Assembly: GCA_038373885.1 (NCBI GenBank)
Contig: JAWZYV010006264.1
Coordinates: forward strand, 1 to 64,000
Length of the DNA stretch: 64,000 nucleotides
Origin: Cheiracanthium punctorium
Taxonomy: Eukaryota > Arthropoda > Arachnida > Araneae > Cheiracanthiidae
Reading direction: 5' to 3'
In this document: positions 6,163 to 63,146 of the stretch, in pieces
How the letters are laid out: every line of letters begins with the position of its first letter
How positions within the stretch are numbered: position 1 is the stretch's first letter
Translations under genes and position numbers: made by a program
Notes under the pieces: generated by a model
Database searches by the model: none
The model's input: only the letters and a program-made list of their open reading frames with translations
Told to the model about the DNA's origin: nothing

Positions 6163-6798
6163 TAGGGATGCAACGGATAGTGATTTTGCCAGATACGGAT
6201 ATCTCGCACTAAACATGTATTTAGTTATTGTGTTTTTTTCATTTTTTTTATATAATTTAGTTCATTTTTTTTTCAAATGATACTGCACAGTGCTTATAAT
6301 TAAACTTCCTCTATAAACCGCAGTCGATGGCTGAAAAAAAGGATGAGTAGATCGCCTCCAAATTTGCACATGGACCCTACATGGCATGGGCTTAAGTTTC
6401 TTTTTTTTTTTAGTTAAGAAAATGTCTGCTAGCGACACTTTGCAGCATGAAATCAACTCTAAATATTAGCCTAACTAGTTATAAATGAAAATGTGCTCAA
6501 AAACTACTGAACAAATGTTGAAATTGTGTGTTTAATTTGAATGATCCATTTCCAGTGTTAAATTTGCTGTTTTTTCAGTTAAGAAACATATTCCTCTGCT
6601 TTATGAATCACTTTATCAAGAATGTTCAAATATAATTTTCCATCCTGTCCCACGCATATTATAGATAGAATTTTAGTAGTATATAGCCGGATATCCCGCA
6701 GAGAAGTCGGATATCCGGTAGTTATGATTCCAATATCTGATGGTATTTTGGAATTGAAAAATCAGCCGGATACTTGTCGGATATCCATTACATCCCTA
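6163..6798. mobile_element. Short hAT element with TAGGGATG ends (636 bp)
   Basis: Ends TAGGGATGCAACGGATA and the inverse of TAGGGATGTAATGGATATCC, with several GGATATCCG-like motifs near the right end. Perfect 8-bp target duplication ctttcact at 6155-6162 and 6799-6806. No transposase, so non-autonomous. TAGGGATG termini are known in one branch of hAT elements. Confidence 0.82.
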
Positions 6799-7275
6799 CT
6801 TTCACTGTTGGGCATATTTATACCAGAGAGTAAAGGGCAATCCAGAGGCAACTCAGGGAAACTGGTTGATTTTGAGTGGGAAATTAGCCTAGAGGCTCTT
6901 AATAAGTGTTTGTGAAAAGCAAACTCGCAATCCTTATCAACCATCCCAAGCAATGGATGAGAAAATTTAACGCACAAGAGAATTGTCTAATGATCTTGTT
7001 TTGAATGAATATGTAATTAATCTCCACAGCAAATTCCTGAAAGAAAAGGGAAATATGAATGCCTAAATGAAGCAAAGTGAAAGCATCTAAGCAAAAGGAT
7101 TTTGATTGTAAACAGAAGACTCTGATAAAAACAAAATGCCTCACTGTGAAAATGCATTCGACACAGCACCATCTTTCCAAGGAAACCAGTAAAAAAAAAA
7201 AAGAAAAAGAAAAAAGGGGGCATTTTTTTTTCGATTGAATTAACAAAATTTTGTTACAACATAATATTCATTATA

Positions 7276-7525
7276 ACAAAAAAATTGATGACCCTGAGAG
7301 GTTCTTTGTAAGTTGAACTCACTGCATTGTAAAAAATATTGAACAGCGACATTTCAGATTAATTTTATATTACACATGGATAATATTTTTTTACAAACCA
7401 AATTGATTTTTAAATTGATGACCCCAAAGAGTTCTTTGTAAGTGAAACTCACTGTATTGTGAACAGCGACATTTCAGATTAATTTTATATTACACATACA
7501 TATTTTTTTTACAAGCCAAATTGTA
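7276..7525. repeat. Two-copy tandem duplication, about 120 bp per unit
   Basis: The unit from AATTGATGACCC through TTCTTTGTAAGT, AACTCACTG, GAACAGCGACATTTCAGATT to TTTTTACAA is present at about 7281-7400 and again at about 7412-7516, with small indels. Nothing links it to a coding sequence. Confidence 0.75.
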
Positions 7526-7544
7526 AATTTCTCCATCTCTGGAT

Positions 7545-7905
7545 GCACTGCTTGTGTCGACTGGGTAGACAAATTAGTCCTAAACTTTTCTAAGCATGTC
7601 AATGCTGACTGCTTCCATGGCTGCTATTATGAGTGTCTTCAATTTAGCTAATGTTCCTGGAAGAGGAGGCACACAAACATGGTCTTTTTTACAAAGAAGA
7701 AATTGCAAATTGTGAAGTCCAGCTATCAGAGAAGTAATATTTAACTGAATCATCACTTCCTAAATGACTGATAAATCAGTGAGGGGTGTAATTGTTTAAA
7801 CTACCAATTACTTCCTACCAATAAACTATTCAACCAAAACAGATTGAAATTTAAATATTTATGATATTTAGAATTTGGGTCATTCTTTTTGAAACACCCT
7901 GTGTA
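7545..7905 (-). mobile_element. Decayed mariner/Tc1-type transposon fragment
   Basis: On the minus strand, 7680-7545 translates to VCVPPLPGTLAKLKTLIIAA, then AMEAVSIDMLRKV and a stop. This resembles the C-terminal end of IS630/Tc1/mariner-superfamily transposases. About 200 bp upstream on the same strand is ACAGGGTGTTTCAAAAAG (7904-7887), a typical terminal sequence of such elements. Most of the transposase is missing, so this is an internally deleted relic. Family assignment is from memory of the pattern. Confidence 0.5.
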
Positions 7906-8722
<817 letters not shown>

Positions 8723-9359
8723 CTAGGAAGAGTATTTACATTTCACATAAAAAGAAATCTCTAATCTGACTAACCTTTAATTTTTATTCATGAAAGATGC
8801 ACATTTTCAACATAAATGTATAAGCATCAACCCATTGTTAAAAAAAGAACACTAATACCTTTGTGCAAAATACCCAAAAGTAACAAAGAAGTTGTACATA
8901 TGTTTCAAAAGATACAAAGGGTCTTTCTTTCAGTAAATTTTAACATAAAAGAAGTAATCAGTTACTTTTCTTTTGTGTAAATCCCTTTGTGTGATTTTTG
9001 TAATGTTAAGAGTATATTCAACCCAAAAGGACATTCATACAAGAATAATGAAGAGATACTGAAAATAAAGTTAAATTTTATGCAGAACTAAAATTGCTTA
9101 ACCAATCATAAACAGCTAGGAAAACAGAATTTCCTCAATAAAAGAATTCAACTGAATTAAGGTCTTTAAATGAAATTAATGATATGCATGAAATTTTATA
9201 AGAATTTATGCTGATCTGTGAGCCTCAATAGTGAAATATAGTTCTTATATACTGAGTTTTAAAATCCTACATACCATATTGGCAAATGCATACATGATAA
9301 ATTTTTACATTAATAATCAGTACAGCATAAAAATCCTGTAACAGCATTCATGTAGTTAC

Positions 9360-9553
9360 CCTGACATTCACTCGACCAGACCATTTCACCATCTCCCCAA
9401 GAAGAGCTGACAAGAGTGAGGACTTCCCAGCACCAACTTGACCAACCACAGCAACAAGAGAGCCTTCTTTCACACGGAAATTCAAATCTGTGAGAGCAGG
9501 TTCTTCATCTTTTGTCCATGAAAAAGTGCCATCTTCAATTATAACTGGGTCTT
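9360..9553 (-). CDS. ABCC/MRP transporter, exon with Walker A of NBD1
   Basis: Minus-strand exon of 194 nt. The acceptor is TTTAG (AG at 9555-9554) and the donor is GT at 9359-9358 (GTAACT). It encodes the start of nucleotide-binding domain 1: an aromatic A-loop region ([13 protein letters not shown]), the strand [16 protein letters not shown], and Walker [10 protein letters not shown], followed by LLSALLGEM. These residues bind and position ATP. The exon ends in phase 0 after the arginine of VNVR, so it runs directly into GSVAYVPQQ of exon 8546-8722. Spacing and order match MRP1-type transporters. No damage is visible, so the gene is probably functional. Confidence 0.93.
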
Positions 9554-11167
9554 CTAAACAAAACAAATACAGTAATTGTTAATTTAGGAGTTTTGTGAAG
9601 ATAAGGGTGATTCTCTAATGGAAAATAAAAGCATTTGAAACCTTTTCATAAACACATGGCAATCCCACAAAAACAACAAGAATTAACAATTTTCAAATAA
9701 CACAGCAATTAAAGAAACTAAAATATGACAGCAGAAATCAAATTTCAGGAAACTGTGCACTAGTCCATTTTTAGGACATGTAGTGTCTAAACATTTTACT
9801 CATTATTTTCTGAATGCATCAAACAATCACTAATGTATAAAAACTGATTAACTCAAGAATGAAGTAGTACAGATTTGAGGAGTTATTTTCTATATGCAAT
9901 GTTCGCATTACATAATGACCACATTATGCCTGTTAAAGACATTTCTATAGAAAATAAGACAAGAAAAAAATATGGGGGTACTTTTTTTCAAGTAATTTTA
10001 AAAAATCATACATCACAGTTATTCTTGATATGTTTATATATAGCAATGTAAATTTATTATTTTCACTATCAAATGATATGGATATATGTTAACAAAATAA
10101 CACTCAAAGAACTTGTGTTAAAAGATGACATAAATAAAAACTTAGTATAATAACACACATAAAAAGATACTTATTGAATAGTGTGTAATAGTAATATATT
10201 TATACTACTAGCAAGAACAGCTTCTTAGATTCATCAAATGTAACAAGCCTATCTGGAAGTAATTTAAACTATACTTGATTTCCCAAACTTGCATGTGCCC
10301 ATGATTTCTAAAACTTGCAAGTAAAGATTACAAATGATACTTACAATAACTGGAAAACCAAAATTTGAATTTTTCTTTTAAAGATCATTCAAAAATTGTT
10401 ATGATACATACAATTTAAGTGCATTTATAAACACATAACTTTTTTTTGGCTAAAATAAGAATAACAAAAATATTAGTACATCGTTTATAGATGTTACATA
10501 TTTAATTTTGCTTGGCATATTTTAAAAAATTAAATTTTAGAATGTAGACAAGTATAGAAATAGATCAGTTTCTCAGGGCTTAAAATTTTCCATACACTTT
10601 AATAGGACTGCACGAGATCTTTACCATGCTGATCACGTAATTCTAAGTTAGTTACATTTTACTACAAAGTTTGATATCAACCTGATAAGATTTCCCAACA
10701 ACTAATTTTTTTTTTCATCCTTTAAATTTTCCATCAATTATAACTTTGATATGAAGAAAATTCATAAATATAATAATTATTACCCTCCATTACTTAGTGT
10801 ATTTAAACTTAATTACAGTTGAACATGATCTGTTCACTAACTTCTAATCAAAAGAATTCAGCAGATAGGCAATTCATATTCACGTAAAATATCAATGCAC
10901 TATAAAAAAGCATCAAACAGTCAAGCCCTTTAAATCTAATCCTTCTAATGAAAAAAATTGATTTTTTTAAGAGTAAAAGACCAAATCAAAATGGTTGGAA
11001 AACTTATATAAATATATCAATTAAAACAAATATGGATACAAAATTTTTAAAACACTATCCAAAACAGCTAAAAATTAAGAAAAAAATGAAAATCTTCCTC
11101 TTACACCCAAAAATGAATCTCTCTTTCAAGAAATCCTTAGTTAACAATACCTAAAGATAAATAAAAC
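9554..11167. other. Original ABCC intron sequence left of the giant hAT
   Basis: About 1.6 kb, strongly AT-rich, with no coding frame of interest and no repeat ends. Together with the 13 nt 43759-43771 it seems to be what remains of the intron as it was before the hAT insertion at 11168-43750. Confidence 0.6.
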
Positions 11168-11995
11168 CAGTGGTGGGAAAAACTACTTTTTTTTTTGTAG
11201 CGAACTACAACTACCGCTACTTTTCGAAAAATGTAGCTAACTACAACTACTTTTTGAAAAATGTAGTTAGCTACACTACTTTTGAAATGTAGTCGCTACT
11301 TCGCTACTTTTTCGCTACTTTTAGGAGACAAATTTTGCTAACAGATTCTGTTTGCATTACATTCATATTTAAGAATATTTATATCCCAATTAGAGAAAAC
11401 TATTGATATCTTAATTAGAAAAAAACTATTGCACTAATAAACAACTACCAGGGGAGTGCTTGAGGAGGGCGGCAGGCCCCCTCAAGAAATGTAATGCAAT
11501 TATTAAAAAGGAGCTATTTTGAAACATTTCTTTTAACTTTAGAACAATAAAGTTTAAAATACCGAATCGTTCCCCTCCTCTCGAAATGAAAGCCTATATA
11601 TACGCTACTGACAACTACTGCTAATTATCAGGGTGCAAATTGACGGGGGGGATGCCGGGGATTGTCCCTGGCTGAAGAATGTAATATCCCTGGCTAGAGA
11701 AATATTAATGGATCCCTGCCAGGGATACTGTTTATCCCCTGTTGGAGAAATGTTAAAATTAGTCTCTGTCCTTGCAAATTCAACAGTACCAAACGATTTT
11801 AAGTATTGAAAATATATTCTTTTATTTACTAGACAAAAGAGCAAGTTATAAACATTCCTTTGAAATCGATATATACATGCCTGATGCCACTTCTAATTCT
11901 GAAATAAATTAAGATTGCGAAATGAACGAACAAGCGCTGTTCCACCGCGAGCAGAATTTGAGGGTAGACGTAGAATCGACATAGGCAGGAATATA

Positions 11996-12410
11996 TGTAG
12001 AATCCGAAGTTTCAATCAGAGCGCAGCTGCTTCACCCCTTCCTGTGAGACCCCCCCTGACGTGGGAGGTCACGTGATGTTTTGTTTTTCGTGGCTGGGAA
12101 TTCGGAAGAAGCGAGGAGGCAGTTAGAGAGAGTGAGGTTGACGGAGACGGAGAGAGTTTTGAACTGATATAGAACCTTTGCTTGCATGCCTGGGTGGCTT
12201 AATATTTGTGTTCTTTTTCAAGCAGTGAATCCTGTGTGGATGTTTTGTCTTCTTACCTAAGTGGTACCATAGTTCTGAGATACTTTTGTAAATATAATAT
12301 TAAATGTGTGTGTCCAAGTAACTTAGCCTCGTCATTGCGTACATGTCCTGCTTTTAATTAGAAGCACATAATAGTAATTCATCAATTCATAGGGTCAGTG
12401 TGACCCTATA
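11996..12410 (+). repeat. 5' LTR of the tropomyosin-bearing element
   Basis: Starts TGTAGAATCCGAAGTTTC and ends about GGGTCAGTGTGACCCTATA; the last bases are ambiguous because the flank is AT-rich. Contains GGGAGGTCACGTGATG and later ATAATATTAAATG. Confidence 0.8.
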
Positions 12411-12415
12411 GTCTT

Positions 12416-12434
12416 TGGGGACTTTTGCCGGGAT
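12416..12434 (+). promoter_or_regulatory. Candidate primer-binding site
   Basis: TGGGGACTTTTGCCGGGAT lies 5 nt after the 5' LTR. It resembles the tRNA-Pro-type primer-binding sites of some retroelements (TGGGGnCT...CCGGGAT). A second, similar block (TTCGGAACTTTTCGCCGGGA) follows at 12466-12485. Confidence 0.4.
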
Positions 12435-12718
12435 GTCGATGTCGATATCGAAAACCCTCTAGTTTTTCGGAACTTTTCGCCGGGATAGAATTAGAATTAG
12501 ATTCGATAGAATTGGATAGAATTTGATTAAATTGAAAAGAATAGAATTGAATAATTGTGAAGAATAATATGGAATATTGAATTGATTATTGTGTAAAGTA
12601 TCTGTGCTTCAAGGAAAGTTTTGTGTGCTCACATATCAGTTGTGGATTACCAGGGCGAGTTTGATCGCCGAAGACTGCAAACTGTAAGTACTCAATTTTT
12701 TTTTTTTTATCAGCAACC

Positions 12719-14346
12719 ATGTCGTACATCGGAAAACATCGTAAAGAGGATATTATCAAATTAATGCGTGAACTGGATTTAAAGATTCCCGATAACCCAA
12801 CTATTGCTAAAATGAAACAGATTATTATTAGTGATGCAAATTACTATGAAGAATTCACAAAATCTGTTCTCAGTAAGATTGCGGCGGACCGCGAAAAAAG
12901 AAAAGATTGCGCGGGAAAAATTAGAACGTGAATTCCTATTGGAACAATTAAAATTAAAAAATTATGAGAAGGGGAACAGTACAGAACCTTTTGTAATCCA
13001 AAACAAAATAGATCTTACAAAAATAATCAAAAGTTTCGATTCGAGGGATCCAAAAGCAGACATTAGCACGTATCTCGCTTTATTTGAGAGGCAAGCCACA
13101 AGAGTCGAAATTAAAAAAGATGATTGGGTCACACACTTGTTAGGGTTATTACCTCTAGACATCGCGCAAATCATAACTCGAGAACCCGAAAATGTTTCGA
13201 ATGATTATGATCACATTAAAGCAGTATTGCTGAAAAGATTTAAATTGACTGCAGAACAGTTTAGACAAAAGTTATTTTTTCATAAAAAAGAAAGTTCTTG
13301 TTCTAGGCGAGAATTCGCTTTTGAACTTAACCATTATTTTGAAGAATGGATTCATGGCGTTAATATTAAAGATTTCACTGGTCTTTGTGAACTGATAGTT
13401 TCTGACCAGGTAAAAAGAAGAGTGCCACAAGAGGTTAAAGAACATTTTATAGATAACTGGCATAAGTGGAACACTAGGGAGGAAATAGTAGAGAAGTTAG
13501 AAGAATATGAATCAGCTCGTGTTTTATCTAATAAAACATTTCCTAAAAAAGTGAATAAAGAAAATGATACGTTTTCTAGCCCCGTACCAGGGAAAGATAA
13601 TAAAAATTTTGGAGCTACCAGGAAAAAATGTTATGCTTGTAATAGTTATTCACACAAAATTGCAGAATGTAAATATAGATTTAGGAACGATAATTTTGAT
13701 CGTACAGGTGAAAGTAAACGAAAAATTGTTAATCAAATGGTTGTAGAAGAGCCAGGCAAAACAGAAAGTAAAAATAGATTCAGATCTAAAAGGTATGATC
13801 GAGCAAAGTATAGTTATAGAAATAAAGCTAAATCGGTGGTGGAGAACAAAATTGTGGAATCATCTAGTAATAAAATTGAGAAATATGTTAATATTTTTAA
13901 TTTTGATGTGAAAGCATTTATTGATACTGGTTCCGAAGTAACTTTGATCGACCAGAATATTTATGAAAAGATGGGTTCTCCTTCTATCCAGTACAGATAT
14001 TAATTTGTGTGGTATCGATTCTGAAAGAGTTTCACCCATTGGTTTCTTTAATTCGAAAATAGTGATTGACAGTTGTACAGTATTTACTAATGTTTATGTT
14101 ATGAAGCATATGCGCTTTAGTGCAGTCATTGGAATGGATGTAATATCGAAACTAGAATTTAATTTTGTGCAAGGGAATGTTAACGTAAAAAATGCAGCCA
14201 TGATTGATGTAGTGTACCCTACCAAACGAGTTACTAATTTAGGTAAATACTTTTATTCAACTCCTAATTTCGAACCAGATGTGCTCCCGGTTACATGTAA
14301 ACAACAGTCGCTCGGGTTGCGAGAAGATAAACACTGCGAACTGTTA
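12719..14346 (+). pseudogene. Gag-protease of the tropomyosin-bearing LTR element (two frameshifts)
   Basis: The start ATG at 12719 has a good context (ACCATGTCG). The first 60 residues are in one frame; a frameshift in an A-rich run near 12897 moves the frame to the one open to 14003. The long segment (about 13000-13530) is an alpha-helical capsid-like region, with SCAN-like spacing in its second half (LCELIVSDQVKRRVP). A CCHC zinc knuckle, CYACNSYSHKIAEC (C-x2-C-x4-H-x4-C), sits at about 13630-13671. The protease motif FIDTGSEVTLI is at about 13917-13949. A second frameshift near 13978-14000 leads into the rest of the protease (AVIGMDVISKLEF), read to 14346 in the same frame as the tropomyosin part. 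SCAN-type gag suggests a Gmr1-like Gypsy origin (inference). Confidence 0.8.
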
Positions 14347-15000
14347 ATGAAAAAAATGCACAATATAAAAGAGAAATCGGAGGTCATTAAAGAAACGGCT
14401 GATAAAGCACAATCACCCCTTCAAGAGGAAGTTTGCCGCAGTGAAAAGGTTGAAAGTAAAGTAGCTGCATTGAATAGAAAAATTCAGTTGCTGGAAGACG
14501 ATCTAAAAAGATCATAAAAAAAATTAAAAATTGCTATTCAAAAGTTAGAGGAAACTTCACAAGCCATAGATGAAAATGAACGCTTTCATAAATCTCTTGA
14601 AATTCGGTTAGGACAGGTTTGATCAATTGCTGAAGAATCTGACAGAAAATATGAAGAACTAGCATGTCGAATCGCCATGATAGAAGAGGACTCAAAACAC
14701 GCTGAAAAACGAGCAGCCATAGGTGAAAGTAGAATTGTAGAATTAGAAGAATTAAGAGTGGTTGGTAATAATACGAAATCCCTTGAAGTCAGCGAAGAAA
14801 AGGCTCCACAGAAAGGAGAAACGTATGATATAACTATGCGTCAATTATCACAGAAGTTTCAAGAAGCAGATCCTCGGGCTGAATTTGCTGAAAAATCTGT
14901 AGAAAAGCTTCAACCAGAAATGTTTAAATTGGAAGATGAAATCCTTGCAAAAAAAGAAAAAAATCATAAACTAGTGCAAGAAGAAAATAAGAAGTTATAA
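14347..15000 (+). pseudogene. Tropomyosin-derived coding segment captured in an LTR retrotransposon
   Basis: Tropomyosin is a two-stranded coiled coil that binds along actin filaments. This segment follows the protease in the same frame and carries tropomyosin landmarks in family order. They are: a KKM..IK-EKS start (14347 on); VESKVAALNRKIQLLEDDLK (about 14450-14510); EESDRKYEELACRIAMIE (about 14634-14688); ESRIVELEELRVVGNN and KSLEVSEEKA (about 14725-14805); and RAEFAEKSVEKLQ then FKLEDEI (about 14877-14943). About 40 residues between the start and the first core block are missing relative to the usual 284-residue protein. No introns remain, although tropomyosin genes have many. Two in-frame stops (14515-14517 and a TGA near 14621) break it now. 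The C-terminal end diverges after 14950. Generic coiled-coil similarity would not give this order of specific strings. Confidence 0.85.
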
Positions 15001-15213
15001 GAAAAGAAAGAAGGCAAGAAAAAAGTGAAGGATTCTCGAATCCTATCCCGAAAGATGTACCTTTGAGTACATATCCAATAGACTTCGTCGGACTGTAGAA
15101 CTTTTCATATTTTTGAATGATCTGTAAATAATGTTCTTTTCTTTTCTTTTTTTTAAGTGTTTTATTTCAGATGTCTTGTGCGGTGAGGACACCGCAGGTC
15201 AGATGGCCGAGCC
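15001..15213 (+). other. 3' untranslated part of the tropomyosin-bearing element
   Basis: Starts lysine-rich after the stop (frame is interrupted repeatedly), then a T-rich tract, then GGTGAGGACACCGCAGGTCA directly before the 3' LTR. No clear polypurine tract and no poly-A of a separate retrocopy is visible, which argues against an independent tropomyosin retropseudogene. Confidence 0.5.
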
Positions 15214-15422
15214 TGTAGAATCCGAAGTTTCAATCAGAGCGCAGCTGCTTCACCCCTTCCTGTAAGACCCCCCCTGACGTGGGAGGTCACATGATGTTTT
15301 GTTTTTCGTGGCTGGGAATTCGGAAGAAGCGAGGAGGCAGTTAGAGAGAGTGAGGTTGACGGAGACGGAGAGAGTTTTGAACTGATATAGAGCCTTTGCT
15401 TGCATGCCTGGGTGGCTTAATA

Positions 15423-17764
15423 CAGTGGACTCCGCTTAATGTGATCAGTTTGGGACACCGTGATTTTGATAACAATAACCGATTGATAACAATAAACGAT
15501 ATGCAAAATTAGATAAATTTACCCCCCCCCCACACTCTAATTTACATGTCCTAAATTTCAAAATAAAATGGAAAAACTCACCTTATATTTATGTACTGTA
15601 TATTATCCTTTAAAACACAAGAATTGTATAGATAATTAAAAAAATTATCAACAGTTGTTTGTCTACAATTTTTTCTTAGAAGGTTATTAATAAATTGTTC
15701 GTATTCATAATGTTTCTTAAAGTCATCGGAGCAGTGTTGAACTCCACGTTTCAACACTTTTAATGCATGTCTCATTTCAGCACTTGTAGGAGGTGGCTCA
15801 ATATCAACAGATTCTTCATCGGACTCATCAGTTCCATCATTCGTCTGTTTTCCTATGGCAATCTGACAGACTTCAGATTCTATTAATGTGGAAGCTACTG
15901 GGATACTTTGATCTACTTCCACCCATGCCTCGAACTCTTCAGGGGTCATATCCGAAGGAATTTCAATCTTTTCTTCAGATTTCTGGTCATTTTTTTCGCA
16001 AGATCCTGCGTAGGCGAAGCAGTTTCTGATCGTTTGAGCAGAAACTCGATTCCAGGAAGCTGTTAACAGGTGCACCGCATCAAGAACGTTAGTTTTCTTG
16101 GCCAAATCATTAGCTTTAAGATTTTGTGTGCACTCTATTTCATCCAGTAATCGTGCCCGCATTTCGTGGCGATAATATGCTTTCAAAGCACGAATAATTC
16201 CTTGATCACAAGGCTGAAAAAGAGAAGTAGTGTTTGCGGGTAAAAAAACAACATTAATATGCTTCAGAGTGACATTTAAAATGTGTGCAGTGCAATTGTC
16301 CACAAGGAGAAGAATATCTTGTTTTAGCTTATCGTCCCACTTACGTATCCAGTCATTAAAAATGACTGTTGTCATCCAGGAATTCTTGTTGGCATAGTAG
16401 TCGACAGGAAGTTTTTTAACACCTTTAAAACAACAAGGATTCTTACTTTTCCCGATGACTAAAAGTCTCTGTTTTTCCCCAGACATACTGACGCAACATA
16501 AAACAGTGATACGTTCTTTTGAGACTTTATGTCCTTTTAAGCTTTCATTCTTAAATAAGTATGTATGTTCTGGTGGTGCTCTAAAATACAAAGCTGTTTC
16601 GTCGGCATTGTACACATTTTCTGGTGAATATGAGGCAATTAGTTTTGGCCACTCGTCTCGTAGCCAATTTTCCACTGCTGGCTTATCGGCATCTTTTTGT
16701 TCGCCGTGAATTCTCTTGTAAACAATATTTTCGCGTGTCTTCCATCGCTGAAACCAACCATTTGTTGCAACAAAATCTTTTTTTCCCATTTGAGCAGCTA
16801 AAGTTTCTGATTTTTGTTGCATAAGGGGTCCGTTGACTGGAGCATCACGTTCTCGAACATTTTCAAACCAAAGTCTTTTCAACTTGCTCATCTTTAGCAG
16901 CTCTATTACGTTTGCATTCCGTATTTTCATTTTGTTTATCTCTTCTAGTAAGTTCATCACGATTTTTCAAAATTTTACACAATAAAGGCTGAGAAATGTT
17001 TAACTGAGCTGCAGCATTGCGCTGACTCATTTTTGGTAACCTGCCATAACAATTTAAAATTTCGATCTTTTGTTTTAATGTTAAATCATTTCGCTGTCTG
17101 GCTTCCATATCAACAAGCTGCATGTAAGGGAGCAAGGCATAAAATGTGAATACGCTCCTTCTGAGTTCCGATAATGTCCAGTTCACATGCGCTGAAGATT
17201 GAGGGGAACTCCAGGGGTAAACAATGTATTGAAGGAAACGTTCTCCGGAAAAAAGCTCCCGTTCCGTCTATCTATCATGTGAGGGGTGTGGTTTTATGGG
17301 TTACCGTTTGTCGGCTCATTCCGACTGGCCATAAGAAAAGCCATAAATTTTTCGATTACAATGCCCAGCAAGTGAAAACGGGCCGGAAAAGGGTTATCTG
17401 ACAACCACTGACCACCAGCAGGATGTGCGTGGAGGGGGGGGGGAATTCCAGGAAAGTGTAATTCTTCACTCCTTTGTTCATTCCCCATTTCCCTAGGTGG
17501 AAGCATAGGTGGAAGAGGGAGAATTCTGGGAAATTCAAACAACAGCAAAGGGAAAAAAAAGAATGGGTTCCTTCTAAATACATTGTGAATATTCCTTTGC
17601 CAGTTAAAATGAGGTTCGAAAACTGATAACATTAACCGATGTAATGATCACATAAAGCGATAATTTTAACATACAAATGAATAGAGAAAATCGGGACCAA
17701 GTGATTTCGATAACAATAAGCGATTGATAACATTAACCGCGATCACATTAAGCGGAGTCCACTG
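15423..17764 (-). mobile_element. Tigger/pogo-type DNA transposon (2342 bp)
   Basis: The terminal inverted repeats are perfect for 24 bp (15423-15446 and 17741-17764; starts CAGTGGACTCCGCTTAATG). A TA target duplication is at 15421-15422 and 17765-17766, as in all Tc1/mariner-superfamily elements. It contains one transposase gene on the minus strand. It lies in the 3' LTR of the tropomyosin-bearing element and is therefore younger than it. Extra copies of GATAACAATAA-like motifs lie just inside both ends. Confidence 0.93.
15578..17108 (-). pseudogene. Tigger transposase, near-intact with one frameshift
   Basis: DDE-type transposase that cuts and pastes the element. The likely start is the ATG at 17108 (MEARQRNDLTLKQKIEIL), giving an N-terminal psq/CENP-B helix-turn-helix (RNAAAQLNISQPLLCKIL). 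A +/-1 frameshift near 16870, in GAAAAGACTTTGG, separates it from the rest. The remainder has a second DNA-binding segment (ATNGWFQRWKTREN) and the catalytic core: VYNADET, LLLVDNCTAH and QPCDQGIIRALKAYYRHE carry the three acidic residues. It ends in RQTTVDNFF, typical of the family. Except for the frameshift it is full length (about 510 residues). Confidence 0.9.
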
Positions 17765-18201
17765 TATTTGTGTTCTTTTTCAAGCAGTGAATCCTGTGTG
17801 GATGTTTTGTCTTCTTACCTAAGTGGTACCATAGTTCTGAGATACTTTTGTAAATAGAATAATTATTAAATGTGTGTGTCCAAGTAACTTAGCCTCGTCA
17901 TTGCGTACATGTCCTGCTTTTAATTAGAAGCACATAATAGTAGTTCGTCAATTCATAGGGTCAGTGCAACCCTATATATATGTGCACAGAAAATCGGGGG
18001 TCGACTTTTGTTTGAATTTCAGTCCCTTCCCAGACATGTCGGCGACTGCATTTGTCATGTAATACTTAATATATTATGTGATTGGAGCATTTTACGCCTT
18101 CCCTCCTTTTTTTTTTTCAAATGTCCCCTCCAGAAGAATGTTTTCTTTGAAATGTCCCCCTCCCCCTGGAGAAAACGTTCAATTCGCACCCTGCTAATTA
18201 T

Positions 18202-27128: not shown

Positions 27129-28046
27129 TGTTACGGAATTACTCTGCTACTCCTGGGGTTCGTCGTTCTAAAGTCCAGTTGGTGTAAAAAGTTCAAGTAA
27201 AAAGTCACTTGTCAGGATGGAACACAAACTTTATTTCTTCTAGAACTTCGTAGAACAATCAGCTGCACACAATTCACAAGCACAATCTAGCAGTAACGTG
27301 CTTTTAACAATCCGCTTGGATCAGAAGCTCTCACAAATGCTGTATTTCTCACACAAAATAAGTCACTTTTACAGGCAAAAATTCCGAGGAAATATTCAAG
27401 GGATATAGTACACTATCCCTTAAGACACAGCAATGAAGAATTTACACACAGCACTTTAAAAACAGCTTCACAAAGCAAGCTAACACAGCTTCTATAGCAC
27501 TATCAGTTCACACAAAACAAGCGTACTCAGAGCTCTTCACACATTGAATGTTCAACTCGCAACTGGCTCTTCGGGGCGATGCACGCTTCTATAAATAGCC
27601 GACGCAGGAGGTACAAGAGGTTTCCAGAAAAGTCAATTTCTCGAGGGTTCTACATAAAGCGTGAATTTTGATTACGTCATAGAAGAGAAATGTTAGGTTA
27701 TTATGCATTTTTAATGCAGGAAAAACAACTTCCAGGCCCCATTGGGAAAATCGCGCCAAATGACCAAAAAGTCGCCAAGCTTGGCGACTTTTGGCGAAAT
27801 ATCGCCAAATTTGGCGCCAAAAATAAGTCCTCAAAAGTGAAGAGATCTAAGCTCTAGGACTAATGTTTCTCGAGTTTTCTAGAAATCCCATATATTTGAA
27901 TGGGAAACCGAAACCTCCGTATCTCCGGTTCTAATTGGCCGATTTTGATGCAACAAAAAGCAAAATTTATCTATTTGAAGCGTAGAATACGAATTTTAAA
28001 CCATTTTAAGCCCCAGAGCAGCGGGTTGCCCCGAAAATTCGTAACA
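27129..28046 (-). repeat. Gypsy-1 3' LTR
   Basis: 918 bp. Includes the palindromes AAGTCGCCAAGCTTGGCGAC (part of a longer one, about 27768-27792) and CGCCAAATTTGGCG (about 27803-27816). Has CGAGTTTTCT near 27870, which the other LTR lacks. Confidence 0.93.
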
Positions 28047-28059
28047 TTGCCTCCTTCCC
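28047..28059 (-). promoter_or_regulatory. Gypsy-1 polypurine tract
   Basis: GGGAAGGAGGCAA on the minus strand abuts the 3' LTR; it primes plus-strand synthesis. Confidence 0.75.
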
Positions 28060-28414
28060 AAGGACTGCGCGTCCCGGGCAGTACAATCCCCAGTTAGGAG
28101 GTCACACAAATATACAGTGTCCAACCTTTAACCAAATCTTAACAACATAATTTAAGCAAATAATCAATAAACACAGTAAGCAAATGCACTCTAATAAATA
28201 AATAATATACATAATAAACAATTACACTAATAAGTAATCAATATAATAAACAAATACACATTAATAGAAACCAATATATTACAAATATGTACACTAAACA
28301 TGGCGTAAGTAGTGAGTGAAAGAGAGTTGAGGAAAGAGGAAGAGAAGGGAAAGACAGGAAAGAAATGAGAGTTGAAAGAAAAGAGGAATTACGCCATAGT
28401 GATCATGGTCTGAG
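28047..28414 (-). other. Gypsy-1 3' untranslated region
   Basis: Between the pol stop and the 3' LTR. Low-complexity AATAAACAA-type repeats and an AG-rich stretch (28311-28385). No envelope frame. Confidence 0.7.
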
Positions 28415-28803
28415 CTAATTACAACCGCGGTAGATGGCAAGCCGATCGTAATGTACAACTCTTGGCTTCGAGTTTGGTGACTTACGAATCCGTACGATGA
28501 CGTCATTCAGCCGGTTTAGGACTGTGTAAGGACCATCCCACGGCGATTGTAGCTTGGGAGACAGGCCTTTCCGTCGAGTAGGATTCCATAGCCAAACTTT
28601 GTCACCTGCGTTGAACTCATGTCCCGTAGCCTTCGTGTCGTAGCGAGTCTTCATCTTTTCCGTGTTCAGGTTGATCCGCTCCCGAGCAAAATGATGCACA
28701 TCTTCAAACCGTGCCCGAAGGTTTTCCACGTATTCCTCTGGCGATGAAGGCGCATCTGGAGGGCGGCCGAACACTAGATCGGCGGGAAGACGAAGATCTC
28801 TGC
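28415..28803 (-). pseudogene. Gypsy-1 integrase C-terminus, separated by the hAT
   Basis: Continues the integrase in frame after the 8-bp target duplication, beginning LRLPADLVFGRPPDAP. Contains the C-terminal GPY/F module (WDGPYTVLNRL) and a normal stop at 28415. It reads identically to the plus-strand copy at 63147-63527 apart from single differences (a K/E difference near the middle). Confidence 0.9.
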
Positions 28804-29102
28804 CAGTAGCGCAGCCAGAAATTTTTTTTAGGGGGGGTCCAAATTACTCGGACTCGGGAGATCAGACCCCCCCCCTTCCCTTAAATGATCATGTTGCTGT
28901 TCACAGGGCCCCCGTAAATGACACCCATATAAGTTTTTCTAGGGGAGGGGGGGGAACTGATCGTCTCAGACAGGCACTCAGCAGTCATCCCTTCCCCGGA
29001 AGAAATGTTTCACGAATTTTACCTTTACAGAAAACATTTGAAATTTTACCCTCAGGCCCCCAGAAAGCGCAGAATCAGTGGGAATACCTATATTCTCCCC
29101 CC

Positions 29103-35321: not shown

Positions 35322-38300
35322 CTATTCTTGCACCAGTACCTCTGCTACGGTTGTAGCTTCTTGATCGGGAATAGGAAACGCTTCGGGCCATTTAGAAAAG
35401 TAGTCAATGACAACTAGGATGTATTTGTTGCCATCCGAAGTTCGCGGAAGAGGTCCCAGGATGTCGAGGGCAATCCTCTCAAAAGGCGCTCCTACATTAT
35501 AATGATGTAGTCTTCCACGGCTTCGTTTCTTCGGGCCTTTACGGGCGGCACAGGCGTCACAAGCTTGACACCACTTTTCAACGTCGCCTCGAGCCCTAAC
35601 CCAGTAGAAGCGCTCGCGAACTTTCTGCAGGGTCTTCATTACGCCAAAATGGCCTCCAGTATAGCCATTATGAAGTTCTTCTAGAACCTTCGAACGAGGG
35701 AGTACTAACTGCCATCGGAGCATCTTGCCGTCGTCCGACTCCCATTTACGATACAGGACTCCATTCCTCAGGCGAAGCGAATCCCATAAAGCCCAGAACT
35801 GTTTTGTTGCCGGACTGTAAGATGATATTTCTTGCCAACTGGGCTTAGCGCTGGATTTTTCCATAAATTCCACAATAGGTTTGATGTCACTGTCTGCTAA
35901 TTGGTCCGCCCGAACATTTTCGTCACTCCAGGGATCTTGGGATGGTGTCGATGATGTAACTTGGCGGACAACGGGATGTTTCAGATGGTAATTTTTCTCT
36001 GCCCTGGAGCAATAGCGACAGCTGTCTATACAGGGCCTTCTTGACAAAGCATCTGCATTTGCATGAGATGCCCCTTTCCGATGACGTATCTCGATGTCAT
36101 ATTCTTGTAATCGCTGTATCCACCTGGCTATTTGGCCCTCTGGATTCTTGAAATTTAGAAGCCAGGTTAAAGAGGCATGGTCCGTTCGGAGCAGGAACTT
36201 TCGGCCGTACAGGTAATGATGGAAGTGCTCCACGGCTTTAATGATAGCAAGAAGTTTCTTTCTCGTAACACAATAGTTACGTTCTGCCTTTGAAAGGCAC
36301 TTGCTCCAGTAAGCAATGACGTGTTCTTGGCCATCTATCTCCTGGGACAAAACTGCTCCAACACTCTCCTTACTTGCGTCTGTGTCCAGGATAAATGGCT
36401 TGTCAGGGTGAGGATACGACAGGATCGGTGAAGATGTTAAAGCCGTCTTCAGTTCGTTGAATGCGTCCTCACATTCCTCAGTCCACAGAAATTTCTGTCC
36501 AGTCTCAGTCAATTTGTGAAGAGGTCTTGCAATTTGAGAAAAGCCCTTCACGAATTTTCGATAGTAAGTACACAGACCGAGGAAACTTCTTAAGTCATGG
36601 ATATTCTCGGGACGACTCCAGTTCTGGACTGCGGACGTCTTTGCGGGATCGGTCCGGACTCCGCGGGCGGATATTATGTGCCCGAGGTAACGTACTTCCT
36701 GACGGAACATGTTGCACTTAGATGGACTCAGTTTCAAGTTCGCCTCCTTTAATTTCTGCAGCACCTTTCGGATGTTCTCTAGATGCTCTTCGAAAGTCCT
36801 TCCGACGATGATGATATCGTCCAAATAAACGAGACATGCTTCGTAGGAAAGTCCTCTCAACACTGTCTCCATTAGACGCTCGAACGTAGCCGGTGCGTTG
36901 CAGAGTCCAAAAGGCATAACTTTGAAATGCCACAATCCTTGTCCCGCAGTGAACGCAGTCTTTTCACGGTCATCGGGATGGATTTCTACTTGCCAGTAGC
37001 CACTCTTGAGATCCAGAGTGGAGAACCATTCGTTTCCCGGTAAAGTGTCCAATGTGTCGTCTATCCTGGGAAGAGGGTAGCTGTCTTTCTTGGTAATGTC
37101 ATTCAGACGTCTATAGTCAATGCAGAACCAGGTGGAACCATCTTTCTTTCGGACCAAAACAATCAGCGAGGCCCACGGACTAGTCGATGGCTCGATGACG
37201 TCATCACGCTGCATCTCCTCTAAAAGTCTGCTCACCTCTTCTTGCTTAGCAAACGACAGCCGCCTAGGATGTTGCTTGATGGGAGAATGGCTGCTTGTGT
37301 CTATTCTATGTTGCGTTAACCTTGTACGGCCAAAGTCACCGGAAGTACGAGAGAAGAGGGCTTCAAATTCAGCTATTACTTTCTCTGCAGCGCTTCTCTG
37401 TTCTGCCGTTAACTCCACGTCTTGTAATAATTCCTTCGTCAGGCACTCGGAAGATTTAGCTGTCGTTTGGTTGATGTTCTTATTAATGCAGGTAACAGGA
37501 GTGCATGTCGCCAACACTTCATTTTTCTTTATCACCTTCGACTTGTCCGTCACATTTACTACTCTAACTGGAATTTCTGTTCTCGACAAGTCCACAAGTG
37601 TTGCTCCCACAAGTACTCCTCTGATGGAATCACTATTGTTTGGGTGTTCGATTAATCCAAAACGGAATTTATTGCTTTCTTTTACTGTTCCAGAAATTAT
37701 TGAATCAGTTCTGGGAGGTAGAGTGATATCAGTCTGGGCTATTATTTGCTGAACAGGCAAAACAGTTTCATTTCTAATATCGAACGCAGCTATTTCTTCT
37801 GAGTCTGAACGAAGCTCATTATTCTTAAAGTCCAAGTTAAATTTGTGCGATTTTAAAAAGTCGAGTCCGAGAATAAAAGAGTCTGTAATATTGGCGACAT
37901 ATACCACATGGTCGTATCTGGCATTTCCAAACGTGATTTTTACTTGTGCTTTTCCGCCCACTTCGATCTTGTCACCTGTCACAGTCTGGAGGGTCAGCGA
38001 GGGCGGAGTCCAGATAATCTTCAAGTTCAATTTCTTGGCCAGATCCATCCTTATGATGGTTACGTTCGCTCCAGTATCAATCACCATGTGGCATGGGGAA
38101 CCATTAACGTATCCCAGTACGAATAGTCCATCACTGCCGCCATTCACTAATGAAATCTGTAAGACTTTCAAACGGGGATTTTGAATATCCCTCAGCCTCT
38201 GTTCCTGAAAGTCGTCTCTTTTCTGTCTTCCTTCATGGGCTTCTCTGGTGCATTGATAACTGCGATCTTTACGACGAGAGTTCTTTTGTGCGTCGCAGTA

Positions 38301-39494
38301 CTTTCGTAAATGCCCCTCGCTGTTGCACCTCCAACATTTCACTTTTCTTGGCTCTGACTGTTCTTGTCGTTCCACCAGATTTTCCAGGGTCTTTAATTTA
38401 TTCTCTAATCTCTCCATTTCTCCATCCGTAGGCTCCTGGAATGATACAGCTCTAACATTATGCCGCTCTTTTCTTACGGCCAGCTGAGCTGCCTCTAGCT
38501 TCATGGCGAATACGAGGGCAGACCTGAGATCTTTATAATCCGCCAAGATCAATGCTTTCTGAATTTCAGAGTCCACGAGGCCTTCAATAAAATGTTGTAC
38601 TGCAACTTCTTCTCGAACATTATCAGGATAACTGCCATAGGCTAGATGACACAGCCTATCTATGTCGGAAGCCAGCTCTTGGAGGGTCTCGCCAGGTCTC
38701 TGCATCCTTGTCTTAAGTTGGATTCTACTATATTCTTTCTGGCACTTCTCTCCGAATTTCATCTCCAAGGCACTTGCGAGGGCGTCAAAATCTCCTATCT
38801 TCGTCGCTCCGATAGTTTGCAATACATTAATTGCATCTCCGCTAAGGGAAGCGGCCAGTTGATTAGCTTTCTCGGACTCGCTCCAACCATTGGCTCTGGC
38901 GACGATCAAAAATTGGGTCTTGTAAGCTTCCCAGGGAGTCTTTCCGTCATAAGGCGTTAGTTTCACTGCTGGGTGGCGTGACGACAGCCTGATGTTTTCT
39001 GGTACCTTTCCCAGCTTTACTAAACTGTCCAGTTTTTCTTCTAGCTTGTGATCGATCTTTTCCTCAATCCTTTCCTCGCATCTCGCTTGACTTTCTTCCA
39101 GGAGTGATACTCTTTTCTCTACTTCCTCTAAACCAGTTTTCATCTCTTCGTGAGCGGTTTTTAACTCATCTAATCCGGTTTCTATTTTTCTTTGTCCATC
39201 TTCCACTTTCCTCTCTAGTCCGACCAATCCGGCTTCAATTTTCTTTTCTAAATCCGCCTTCATCTGTTCTTGTGCGGCTTTCATCTCGTCTTGTCCGGCT
39301 TTCATCTGTTCTTGTGCGGCTTTCATCTCGTCTTGTCCGGCTTTCATCTGTTCTTGTGCAGCTTTCATCTCGTCTTGTCCGGCTTTCATCTCGTCTTGTC
39401 CGGCTTTCATCTCGTCTTGTCCGGCTTTCATTTCTTGCATCATAATCATGAGCTTTTGAAGTTGTTCTTCCATTTTTTGTCTAGTTAAAACCAT
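35322..39494 (-). CDS. Gypsy-1 Gag-Pol, open for 1390 codons up to a premature stop in integrase
   Basis: I chose the ATG at 39494 (MVLTRQKMEEQ). Residues about 22-80 are tandem heptads MKAGQDE/MKAAQEQ, leading into a coiled coil to about 155 and a capsid-like region (about 175-340). CCHC knuckle CWRCNSEGHLRKYC is at about 387-400. Protease VIDTGANVTII is at about 471-481. Reverse transcriptase has WFCIDYRRLN, STLDLKSGYWQV and catalytic VYLDDIIIV (about 889-897). RNase H carries ILDTDASKESVG and TDHASLTWLL. Integrase shows the HHCC finger (H..GGH ... CQACDAC) and the first catalytic aspartate in ALDILGP. Stop TAG at 35319-35321 cuts the integrase core; the remainder is at 35019-35318 and 28415-28803. 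Single frame for gag and pol. Confidence 0.93.
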   Translation of the reverse strand: MVLTRQKMEEQLQKLMIMMQEMKAGQDEMKAGQDEMKAGQDEMKAAQEQMKAGQDEMKAAQEQMKAGQDEMKAAQEQMKADLEKKIEAGLVGLERKVEDGQRKIETGLDELKTAHEEMKTGLEEVEKRVSLLEESQARCEERIEEKIDHKLEEKLDSLVKLGKVPENIRLSSRHPAVKLTPYDGKTPWEAYKTQFLIVARANGWSESEKANQLAASLSGDAINVLQTIGATKIGDFDALASALEMKFGEKCQKEYSRIQLKTRMQRPGETLQELASDIDRLCHLAYGSYPDNVREEVAVQHFIEGLVDSEIQKALILADYKDLRSALVFAMKLEAAQLAVRKERHNVRAVSFQEPTDGEMERLENKLKTLENLVERQEQSEPRKVKCWRCNSEGHLRKYCDAQKNSRRKDRSYQCTREAHEGRQKRDDFQEQRLRDIQNPRLKVLQISLVNGGSDGLFVLGYVNGSPCHMVIDTGANVTIIRMDLAKKLNLKIIWTPPSLTLQTVTGDKIEVGGKAQVKITFGNARYDHVVYVANITDSFILGLDFLKSHKFNLDFKNNELRSDSEEIAAFDIRNETVLPVQQIIAQTDITLPPRTDSIISGTVKESNKFRFGLIEHPNNSDSIRGVLVGATLVDLSRTEIPVRVVNVTDKSKVIKKNEVLATCTPVTCINKNINQTTAKSSECLTKELLQDVELTAEQRSAAEKVIAEFEALFSRTSGDFGRTRLTQHRIDTSSHSPIKQHPRRLSFAKQEEVSRLLEEMQRDDVIEPSTSPWASLIVLVRKKDGSTWFCIDYRRLNDITKKDSYPLPRIDDTLDTLPGNEWFSTLDLKSGYWQVEIHPDDREKTAFTAGQGLWHFKVMPFGLCNAPATFERLMETVLRGLSYEACLVYLDDIIIVGRTFEEHLENIRKVLQKLKEANLKLSPSKCNMFRQEVRYLGHIISARGVRTDPAKTSAVQNWSRPENIHDLRSFLGLCTYYRKFVKGFSQIARPLHKLTETGQKFLWTEECEDAFNELKTALTSSPILSYPHPDKPFILDTDASKESVGAVLSQEIDGQEHVIAYWSKCLSKAERNYCVTRKKLLAIIKAVEHFHHYLYGRKFLLRTDHASLTWLLNFKNPEGQIARWIQRLQEYDIEIRHRKGASHANADALSRRPCIDSCRYCSRAEKNYHLKHPVVRQVTSSTPSQDPWSDENVRADQLADSDIKPIVEFMEKSSAKPSWQEISSYSPATKQFWALWDSLRLRNGVLYRKWESDDGKMLRWQLVLPRSKVLEELHNGYTGGHFGVMKTLQKVRERFYWVRARGDVEKWCQACDACAARKGPKKRSRGRLHHYNVGAPFERIALDILGPLPRTSDGNKYILVVIDYFSKWPEAFPIPDQEATTVAEVLVQE
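39255..39431 (-). repeat. 21-bp coding minisatellite in Gypsy-1 gag
   Basis: About eight copies of a 21-nt unit alternate two versions encoding MKAGQDE and MKAAQEQ. Each unit is one coiled-coil heptad, so copy-number change keeps the frame and the heptad register. Confidence 0.9.
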
Positions 39495-39523
39495 AAACTG
39501 GAAAATTAAAGTCTTTCTTTTGA

Positions 39524-39541
39524 ATCCCGATTCTGACACCA
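39524..39541 (-). promoter_or_regulatory. Gypsy-1 primer-binding site (tRNA-Leu type)
   Basis: TGGTGTCAGAATCGGGAT on the minus strand, 2 nt after the 5' LTR. It resembles the reverse complement of tRNA-Leu 3' ends (…TCTGACACCA). Confidence 0.65.
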
Positions 39542-39543
39542 AA

Positions 39544-40451
39544 TGTTACGGAATTACTCTGCTACTCCTGGGGTTCGTCGTTCTAAAGTCCAGTTGGTGT
39601 AAAAAGTTCAAGTAAAAAGTCACTTGTCAGGATGGAACACAAACTTTATTTCTTCTAGAACTTCGTAGAACAATCAGCTGCACACAATTCACAAGCACAA
39701 TCTAGCAGTAACGTGCTTTTAACAATCCGCTTGGATCAGAAGCTCTCACAAATGCTGTATTTCTCACACAAAATAAGTCACTTTTACAGGCAAAAATTCC
39801 GAGGAAATATTCAAGGGATATAGTACACTATCCCTTAAGACACAGCAATGAAGAATTTACACACAGCACTTTAAAAACAGCTTCACAAAGCAAGCTAACA
39901 CAGCTTCTGTAGCACTATCAGTTCACACAAAACAAGCGTACTGAGAGCTCTTCACACATTGAATGTTCAACTCGCAACTGGCTCTTCGGGGCGATGCACG
40001 CTTCTATAAATAGCCGACGCAGGAGGTACAAGAGGTTTCCAGAAAAGTCAATTTCTCGAGGGTTCTACATAAAGTGTGAATTTTGATTACGTCATAGAAG
40101 AGAAATGTTAGGTTATTATGCATTTTTAATGCAGGAAAAACAACTTCCAGGCCCCATTGGGAAAATCGCGCCAAATGACCAAAAAGTCGCCAAGCTTGGC
40201 GATTTTTGGCGAAATATCGCCAAATTTGGTGCCAAAAATAAGTCCTCAAAAGTGAAGAGATCTAAGCTCTAGGACTAATATTTCTAGAAATCCCATATAT
40301 TTGAATGGGAAACCGAAACCTCCGTATCTCCGATTCTAATTGGCCGATTTTGATGCAACAAAAAGCAAAATTTATCTATTTGAAGCATAGAATACGAATT
40401 TTAAACCATTTTAAGCCCCAGAGCAGCGGGTTGCCCCGAAAATTCGTAACA
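39544..40451 (-). repeat. Gypsy-1 5' LTR
   Basis: 908 bp, nearly identical to 27129-28046. Several differences are CpG-to-TpG or CpA changes (for example GGCGCC to GGTGCC near 40230). Lacks the 10-bp CGAGTTTTCT. Confidence 0.93.
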
Positions 40452-53605: not shown

Positions 53606-54119
53606 TGTTAGCCTAGTTGCTTATTTCTCCGCCACTTAACCAATAACGAAACCACTAGAGCGATGTTTCGTCTTCCCGCTCGCTCGCCCGCAGCTGTGTT
53701 ACGTAATCCTTCGGCAGCTCGCATTTGCATCTTTCTCTCCGTGCCGCGCCGGGTTGTGACGTCATGGCAGAAGTTATTTGGCTGGGTATCTGTCCGCGAT
53801 GTTGTATAAGAGGTGGCGTTTTTCACAGGTGAATGAGGTATGCGTTTACCGGTCGTGCAGCGCTTGGCAGGTATTTTTTTTCGACGGCTCGACATGAGCC
53901 CGTATTGTTGCAATGATTTTTCGTGTACATTTAGTACTGGATCCGATAGTTTTAGTACTGGAGCTAATTAATTCTTTTTTAAGTTCAACTTAATTAATAT
54001 GTATTATAAGTTAAATAAATTTAATTTGATTTTAAAACTTTGTCTTTTTTCAAACCTGCCAGCACACTCTGCTTAAGTATTAGTCAGTTTTAGAAGGGTA
54101 GTATGCCTACTACCCAACA
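53606..54119 (+). repeat. Copia 5' LTR
   Basis: 514 bp; about a dozen differences from the 3' LTR. Contains GTTGTATAAGAGGTGG, a possible TATA region. Confidence 0.92.
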
Positions 54120-55164: not shown

Positions 55165-55587
55165 CTGATATGCAAAGCAGCTGGGTATTTGACACGGCTG
55201 CCTCCCACCACTTTTGCAAAGATAGAAGTCTATTTATTGAATATGAACCCTCACATGGTGAGGAAATGGCTGTTGCTATTCAGGGAGTAACTTTTCCCAT
55301 TGAGGGGAAAGGGGTTGTTAAAACTGAAATTTGGGCAACGTATATTTTATTTTGGTGATGTTTTATATTCTTCAAAACTACGCCACAATCTTATTTCAGG
55401 CTCCAGATTAGACTCAAAGGGTGCCACATTTGAAGGTGGTAGGGGGAAAATAAAGATATTAAAAGAAGGACAAACATTATTTACAGCCCAACTACTTAAC
55501 GGGATTTATCATTTGTATCCAAATATTCCTAGTAAAGTTCCCAAGAATGTAAAATTTGAATCCTCAAATGTATCGTTTAATGAAATG
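55165..55587 (+). pseudogene. Copia protease
   Basis: VFDTAASHHFCKDRSLF (from about 55185) is the Copia aspartic protease site. A frameshift near 55310 moves to a frame with YFGDVLYSSKLRHNLISGSR, the usual end of this domain. Confidence 0.85.
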
Positions 55588-56687
55588 GAAAAATGGCATA
55601 GGCGATTTGCCCATGCAAGTCCGAGCGTAATAGAAAATACTATAAAAAATAATTGCGTAAGGGGACTCCCCCAGTTAAAAAGTGATAATTTTCAGTGTGA
55701 AACATGTAGAATTAATAAGCATAGACGAGTGTCATTCAAACCATTAAATCGTACCAGGTCAAAGCGTCCCTTAGAACTCCTACACATAGATTTGTGGGGT
55801 CCCACAAGAGTAGTAGGGAGGTGGGGAGAGCGATATTATTTAGCAATTGTAGATGACTATTCTGGTAAAGCGTCGCTTTATCCAATGAAAAGTAAAACTG
55901 ATGCCTTTAAAATTTTTAAAAGACATGTAACCCGAGCTGAAAGATTTTTAGAATGTAAGTTAAAAGCTGTTCGTTCCGATAATGGAACAGAGTTTGTTAA
56001 TAGAGATTTTAAAAACTATTTTGAAGAAAACGGTATAAAACACGAATTGACTAATATATACACTCCCAAACAGAACGGGAGAGCCGAGCGTTATAATCAA
56101 ATGGCAGCAAATGGTGCACCATCAATTTTAGATGAAAGCGGACTACACTTAAAATTTTGGCCTGAAGCAGTTTTGCATTTTACTTATACATGGAACAGAC
56201 TTTGTCATAAAAATCAGACAAAAACTCCGTTTGAACTATACAGTGGGTCAGAACCATCGGTAAAGCACTTGAAACCTTTTGGGACTGTAACATATGTTAG
56301 GGTGCCGAAACAACTACAATCGAAATTTGACGCCAGAGCTAAGTAGGGTATTCTAGTCGGATACGCGTTAAGTACTAGAGGTTACAGGGTATGGCTCCCA
56401 GATTGCGATAAAATAATCGAAACTATAAATGTATCTTTTAATGAGTTTCCTGATAGTAACAATAACAGTGGAGCAGTGCTGGGCACCAAATCTGAAACAT
56501 ATCGGTATCTGGACATTAACGATAAAAACGATGACGAAAGCTCTGAAGGGGAGAGGGTAAAGTTTCAGATGAATCCTCGTCAGGAGAGGAGGGAGAGAGC
56601 GATGTTGCACTGAAAGATGTTACATGGATCCGTAAGGCCATTCCCACGCCTGATGATAGCCGGGTGGATATTTACTATTATGAAAAG
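55588..56687 (+). pseudogene. Copia integrase, first copy of the 1100-bp duplication
   Basis: Has the HHCC finger (WHRRFAHASPS ... CETCRINK), the core with LLHIDLWGP, VRSDNGTEFVNR and NGRAERYNQ (D,D,E), and LKPFGTVTYVRVP. TAG at 56344-56346 stops the frame, which continues with GILVGYALSTRGYRVW. Confidence 0.92.
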
Positions 56688-57787: not shown

Positions 57788-58009
57788 GACAAAACTAAGA
57801 GACTGAGGTCATTAAATGACATAGAAAAGTACTGTAAAGAAAATTGTATTAACTTTGAACCACACATATTCAGTTTTAAAGGCGCGGATACGTATGAAGG
57901 AACAGTAACGGGGCAACAGGGAAGTGCTAGTTCGAGTTCAACCCATTTAGCAGCATGACTAGCCGGTGTTACTATCCCCAAAACCTACAAACAAGCTATA
58001 AAATCCCCC

Positions 58010-63138: not shown

Positions 63139-63146
63139 GCAGAGAT

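Follow-up and report, generated by a model that had tools for sequence, protein, structure and literature searches.

Positions 11996-17976 of the window (the whole 64,000-nucleotide stretch of DNA that was analysed) are occupied by an LTR element with the order LTR-gag-protease-tropomyosin-LTR. Its features, with strand and basis, are as follows.

11992..11995, no strand: 5' copy of a possible 4-bp target duplication (TATA), in an AT repeat and of ambiguous register
11996..12410, plus strand: 5' LTR, 415 bp, TGTAG...CTATA (LTR alignment)
12719..12928, plus strand: N-terminal gag piece, frame 2, with frame shifts near 12905-12925 by eye (no Pfam support)
12816..14003, plus strand: gag body, CCHC knuckle and first half of the protease (DTGSEVTLID), frame 0 (motifs, weak Pfam)
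13990..14340, plus strand: second half of the protease (AVIGMDVISKLEF), followed by a linker that reads into tropomyosin without a stop, frame 1 (by eye)
14341..14517, plus strand: tropomyosin, exon-1b-like segment running intron-free into exon 3; stop codon TAA (14515-14517) (Pfam, alignment)
14518..14622, plus strand: middle piece of tropomyosin, closed by a TGA (14620-14622) and shorter than the references by a net 14 codons (Pfam, alignment)
14623..15000, plus strand: tropomyosin C-terminal half, profile positions 112-231, one codon lost (Pfam, PDB, alignment)
15001..15213, plus strand: remaining tropomyosin end and 3' stretch of the element (common to other long copies)
15214..15422, plus strand: 3' LTR, first part (LTR alignment)
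15423..17764, minus strand: pogo/Tigger-like DNA transposon inside the 3' LTR, 2342 bp, TA duplication (DDE_1, E = 3.9e-44)
17767..17976, plus strand: 3' LTR, second part (LTR alignment)
17977..17980, no strand: possible target duplication TATA, 3' copy, beside the split 3' LTR

The initial annotation had placed an element between two LTRs at 11996..15213; the paired LTRs were borne out, while the end coordinate was not. Positions 11996-12204 match 15214-15422 at 206 of 209 sites, and 12203-12410 matches 17765-17976 (95.8% over 212 columns, with two gaps), so the 3' LTR runs on to 17976. It is complete, yet cut in two by the pogo/Tigger-like transposon, whose transposase is spread over two overlapping frames and whose insertion is a later, separate event. 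Clean 4-bp target duplications were seen in only two of six elements inspected, namely the window element (TATA) and a second one (TACA), with ends taken from BLAST. The sequence TGGGGACTTTTGCCGGGAT near 12416 resembles a tRNA-Pro complement and is at most a tentative candidate for the primer-binding site. No clear polypurine tract was found by eye in the window element, Rfam gave no matches at gathering thresholds across 11900-18100, and a tRNA scan returned no tRNAs. A second contig (L013) matches window positions 6708-15577 at 99.2%, including the flanks and the identically cut LTR. It evidently represents either the alternative haplotype or a redundant contig and was handled as the same insertion as the window copy; because it carries the same arrangement, flanks included, the arrangement was assembled twice.

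The reported presence of gag, a CCHC knuckle and an aspartic protease is upheld by the motifs and by their canonical order, despite weak Pfam scores in the window element (SCAN 0.05, CCHC 0.07, gag-asp_proteas 0.087). The stretch from the CCHC knuckle to the DTG motif also aligns with a Gypsy-type ORF elsewhere in the window (28/118, E = 0.001). Nothing relevant was found by Pfam over 14080-14343, and a structure model of the gag piece was discarded (mean pLDDT 39). Tropomyosin had been described as lying in the protease frame, which holds for the second half of the protease (frame 1) and fails for the DTG half (frame 0), so that a frameshift is placed by eye near 13980, between the two halves. 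Reverse transcriptase (RT), RNase H and integrase are absent from the window element by ORF reading and Pfam, in line with the earlier report that RT and integrase are missing: the protease GMD motif, which ends at 14139, lies 1074 nt from the 3' LTR, and 657 of these nucleotides are tropomyosin. Since the element has none of these enzymes, and protease, tropomyosin and LTR are contiguous in the fetched copies, it is non-autonomous.

The three stop-bounded pieces of the tropomyosin part match PF00261 collinearly, at profile positions 4-59, 63-91 and 112-231 (E = 9.8e-8, 0.019 and 3.3e-28, respectively). Both outer pieces are far beyond chance; the 33-residue middle piece, weak alone, is backed by its position. 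The best non-tropomyosin Pfam family reached E = 0.075 for the first piece and 0.28 for the last, and all 20 PDB sequences matched by the last piece at E ≤ 0.001 are tropomyosin or GCN4-tropomyosin fusions. A generic coiled coil is ruled out by this specificity for PF00261 and by the all-tropomyosin PDB matches, and the proposed collinear tropomyosin stands, as does the count of only two stops in its frame (the TAA and TGA listed above). A mite tropomyosin and a fly short isoform served as reference proteins. Identity over the three pieces was 23/57, 18/29 and 70/121 to the mite protein, and 31/59, 16/29 and 64/113 to the fly short isoform; the larger in-frame loss in the window copy amounts to a net 14 codons, or two heptads, in our own reading of the alignment. 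At 171 compared codons, leaving out the exon-1b part, both stops, the residues flanking the deletion and the last residues, 47 changes were unique to the window, 5 to the mite and 10 to the fly. The window tropomyosin is separated from the references by an estimated 0.14-0.19 substitutions per site, against 0.0085 per lineage since the window insertion. Because this distance far exceeds both the change since insertion and the spread within the family, part of the divergence must predate the present copies, having built up either in elements that preceded them or in the gene that was captured.

The source of the tropomyosin is indicated by its first piece. The 36 residues preceding exon 3 share 14 of 36 with fly exon 1b (score 59, a score reached in 0 of 20,000 shuffles), compared with scores of 34 and 33 against mite exons 1a and 2, so that a long isoform, or exon 1a spliced past exon 2, fits more poorly. 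In the PDB, short isoforms of 248 residues (8iah) were matched by this piece at E = 0.001-0.004 and full-length long ones only at E ≥ 0.16; the best matches were short fly fragments covering the exon-3 part only (E = 7e-5). The direct fusion of an exon-1b-like segment to exon 3 identifies the source as a spliced short-isoform mRNA and agrees with the absence of introns noted earlier. The poly-A and target duplication reported missing around the insert are not seen here either: in the window copy there is no A-run longer than 8 nt in 14201-15213 and no AATAAA or ATTAAA between 14524 and 15213, and the longest exact repeat across the two insert flanks is 6 nt, a length reached in 988 of 1000 shuffles. 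These observations bear on a route in which a LINE made a tropomyosin retropseudogene that landed in an element already without pol and was then multiplied with it. LINE-like ORFs do occur in the window (an RNase H match, and RT by eye), and positions 14998-15100 are 41% A; however, the window copy shows no poly-A run, nearby poly-A signal or flanking duplication, and the loss of pol would have to be a separate event, which together make this route improbable.

The window element is one of a family. With the LTR as query, a genome search in which 40 of 566 candidates were scored found 41 matches, and a search with the tropomyosin part, in which 40 of 118 candidates were scored, matched at all 40 scored places with 93-100% identity, from base 1-4 to base 654-660 of 660. 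Five additional fetched copies, 88.5-92.8% identical, lie on contigs outside those 40 and bring the total to at least 45 places, the haplotype partner included; all copy counts are lower bounds. Twenty stretches were fetched around LTR matches, representing 18 genomic places, of which eight carry tropomyosin and ten, over the length fetched, only an LTR, as solo LTRs would look. Gag or protease without tropomyosin was found at none of the 18. In all eight tropomyosin-bearing stretches, one of them L013, linker, tropomyosin and 3' stretch are contiguous in the window order, and the expectation that other copies would share the protease-tropomyosin junction was thus confirmed. Among these eight, three are interrupted in gag by other sequence, one is without most of gag in the stretch fetched, and one has an interrupted 5' LTR. 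In two uninterrupted copies the distance between the LTRs is about 3.2 kb, like that in the window element (3218), a spacing that leaves no room for pol.

Six LTR pairs differ by 1.2% (5/402), 1.7% (the window, 7 of about 415), 1.7% (7/412), 3.1% (13/419), 4.3% (18/423) and 9.6% (39/408, an interrupted copy and possibly mispaired), and this range of 1.2-9.6% indicates that the chimera moved repeatedly. Pairwise distances in the tropomyosin part over 26 copies run from 1.4 to 10.0% (mean 5.9%); taken with the LTR divergences, they make the chimera older than these insertions and show it to have been copied many times. The combination of young LTRs and a divergent tropomyosin in the window could also have suggested that the window copy was made in the very cycle in which an already divergent tropomyosin of the host was picked up, and that it never moved again. 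That scenario is refuted by the order and junctions shared with other copies and by LTR pairs of differing ages, and has next to no probability.

It is very probable that a spliced tropomyosin was captured once, in place of pol, and that the resulting non-autonomous family spread while its frame stayed open in the source elements. The transduction-like reading of the initial annotation, an LTR element carrying a captured host gene, is supported by the intronless tropomyosin between LTRs, the shared junction and the absence of poly-A or duplication. In the sequence of events that we propose, a Ty3/Gypsy-like LTR retrotransposon picked up, once and from spliced mRNA, a tropomyosin coding sequence of the short (non-muscle) type, most likely through template switching by reverse transcriptase in a particle holding packaged tropomyosin mRNA. 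The loss of pol exactly at the tropomyosin site, the lack of poly-A or of a duplication around the insert and the spliced source all fit template switching in particles; cellular mRNA packaging and template switching in LTR particles have been described in reviews (PMC5408686; PMC13317346). Tropomyosin took the place of RT, RNase H and integrase, and the chimera LTR-gag-protease-tropomyosin-LTR multiplied non-autonomously to at least 45 places. Because pol is absent from the multiplying family, copying would have occurred in trans, presumably with enzymes supplied by a relative that has pol. In the source elements the tropomyosin frame, which continues that of the protease side, remained open, while landed copies decay individually. 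The data show the anatomy, the spliced short-isoform character, the substitution of tropomyosin for pol, the common order, repeated transposition and open sources; template switching, the helper and any role of the protein are inferred.

The frame is not intact in the window, which has the two stops and has lost 2 nt near the tropomyosin end that 13 of 14 other compared copies have. The first of these stops occurs in only two of 27 copies (that of the window and L013, identical at this point) and the second in one of 27; both are decay of this copy. The entire 660-nt part is open in ten of the 27 copies, and a stretch of at least 215 codons in 15. In four of six one-kb copies the frame is open across all of the upstream sequence fetched (184-205 nt) and ends about 25 nt past the part, at about residue 287 of the mite numbering by our own arithmetic, compared with a natural end at 284. 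The captured sequence is therefore almost complete in length and continues the reading frame of the protease side.

Selection on the frame was examined in 26 copies by comparing shared variants, which arose in sources, with private variants, which mostly arose after landing. Disabling variants made up 1 of 91 shared variants against 19 of 165 private ones (Fisher P = 0.0013): the shared one is a stop, the sole shared indel being 3 nt long, while the private ones comprise 8 stops and 11 of 16 indels not in threes. This rarity of disabling changes among shared variants indicates that the sources kept the frame open. Synonymous to nonsynonymous ratios were 32:57 for shared and 34:107 for private variants (P = 0.038), but this synonymous excess is not robust, with ratios of 16:42 and 24:86 (P = 0.26) once CpG-linked sites were removed and P = 0.09-0.16 at higher sharing thresholds. 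A dN/dS-like ratio for shared variants was 0.32 in gag (6:6, four copies), 0.32 in the protease (10:10, eight copies) and 0.57 in tropomyosin; constraint on tropomyosin, weaker than that on gag, is thus plausible, short of proof. When the window copy is taken by itself, neutrality is not rejected by the number of stops (P = 0.26-0.45 for two or fewer), and two stops since insertion gave P = 0.03. Its replacements appeared conservative in the full set (0.43 vs. -0.34, 0 of 1500 as extreme), a signal that was gone after the 10 or 15 most conservative were dropped (P = 0.16 and 0.56).

These data leave about even the chances that tropomyosin is a passenger, an account that concerns role and accepts the same capture: the protein would do nothing for the element, and the frame would be open merely because a few sources seeded recent bursts. 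Private tropomyosin variants do look neutral (dN/dS-like ratio 1.04), the shared synonymous excess is fragile, and the window copy is much changed relative to mite and fly. Yet a passenger would not readily explain a single disabling change per 91 shared variants, nor a window tropomyosin that, for all its estimated substitutions per site, has no frameshift before its last residues. Somewhat less probable is that tropomyosin is a working, protease-linked coiled-coil part of the element, under selection as the family replicates. Such a part might, for example, anchor particles or RNA on actin filaments, or interfere with or exploit host non-muscle tropomyosin.

Transforming retroviruses are characterised by their carriage of cellular genes, which has also been documented among the LTR elements of plants. 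In acute transforming retroviruses, a transduced cellular coding sequence replaces pol behind gag, and a helper is used. The present element is similar in that a cellular coding sequence behind gag replaces pol and a helper is presumed, whereas it shows no sign of env or infection, forms a genomic family and carries a cytoskeletal gene. Maize Bs1 presumably lacks reverse transcriptase. Gene capture by LTR elements is already known from Bs1 and from LTR-mediated retroposition in animals (PMC5408686; PMC13317346; PMC8232201). Bs1 holds segments of a plasma membrane ATPase and two other cellular genes (PMC5408686; PMC13317346). Like it, the present element is an LTR element with cellular gene sequence; unlike it, it is probably from an arthropod, as the invertebrate-type sequence suggests, has one near-complete coding sequence behind the protease and exists in many copies. 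Metazoan LTR-mediated retrocopies are described as mRNA-derived, intronless, lying between LTRs and attributed to template switching (Tan et al., 2016, via PMC5408686 and PMC8232201). The tropomyosin shares these properties, template switching being the proposed mechanism here too, but in this case the chimera kept gag and protease and multiplied repeatedly as a family. A literature search for retrotransposon and tropomyosin showed no such element by title among the matches listed, and the passages that place tropomyosin 1 genes within repeats of lizard chromosomes describe no retroelement capture (PMC4977797). Pattern searches of viral contigs and of bacterial and archaeal genome contigs gave 2, 5 and 52 matches, none confirmed.

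Here an animal retrotransposon has traded its polymerase for a cytoskeletal gene that is nearly complete, and it went on to multiply while the frame stayed open in its sources. The dozens of copies of differing relative age, with the host gene for comparison, constitute a natural experiment, in which it can be tested whether a retroelement benefits from a captured coiled coil. Antisense silencing aimed at tropomyosin-bearing copies could affect the host gene too.

Other repeats are present in the window. A long open Gypsy-type gag-pol ORF (35322-39545) contains, in its N-terminal gag region, 8.2 copies of a 21-bp unit (39259-39431) forming a heptad-like coil array. A 0.9-kb direct repeat (27129-28046 and 39544-40451, 98.0% identical), one copy of which adjoins the Gypsy-type ORF, is perhaps a Gypsy-type LTR and a solo LTR. 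A 1.1-kb inverted pair lies at 27944-29075 and 62868-64000 (95.4% identical). Direct repeats of about 510 bp (53606-54119 and 60106-60616, 96.9% identical) flank Copia-type ORFs and are likely the LTRs of a Copia-type element. In a Copia-type integrase region, a 1114-nt tandem duplication (55580-56693 and 56680-57793, 99.8% identical) is either very recent or an assembly artefact.
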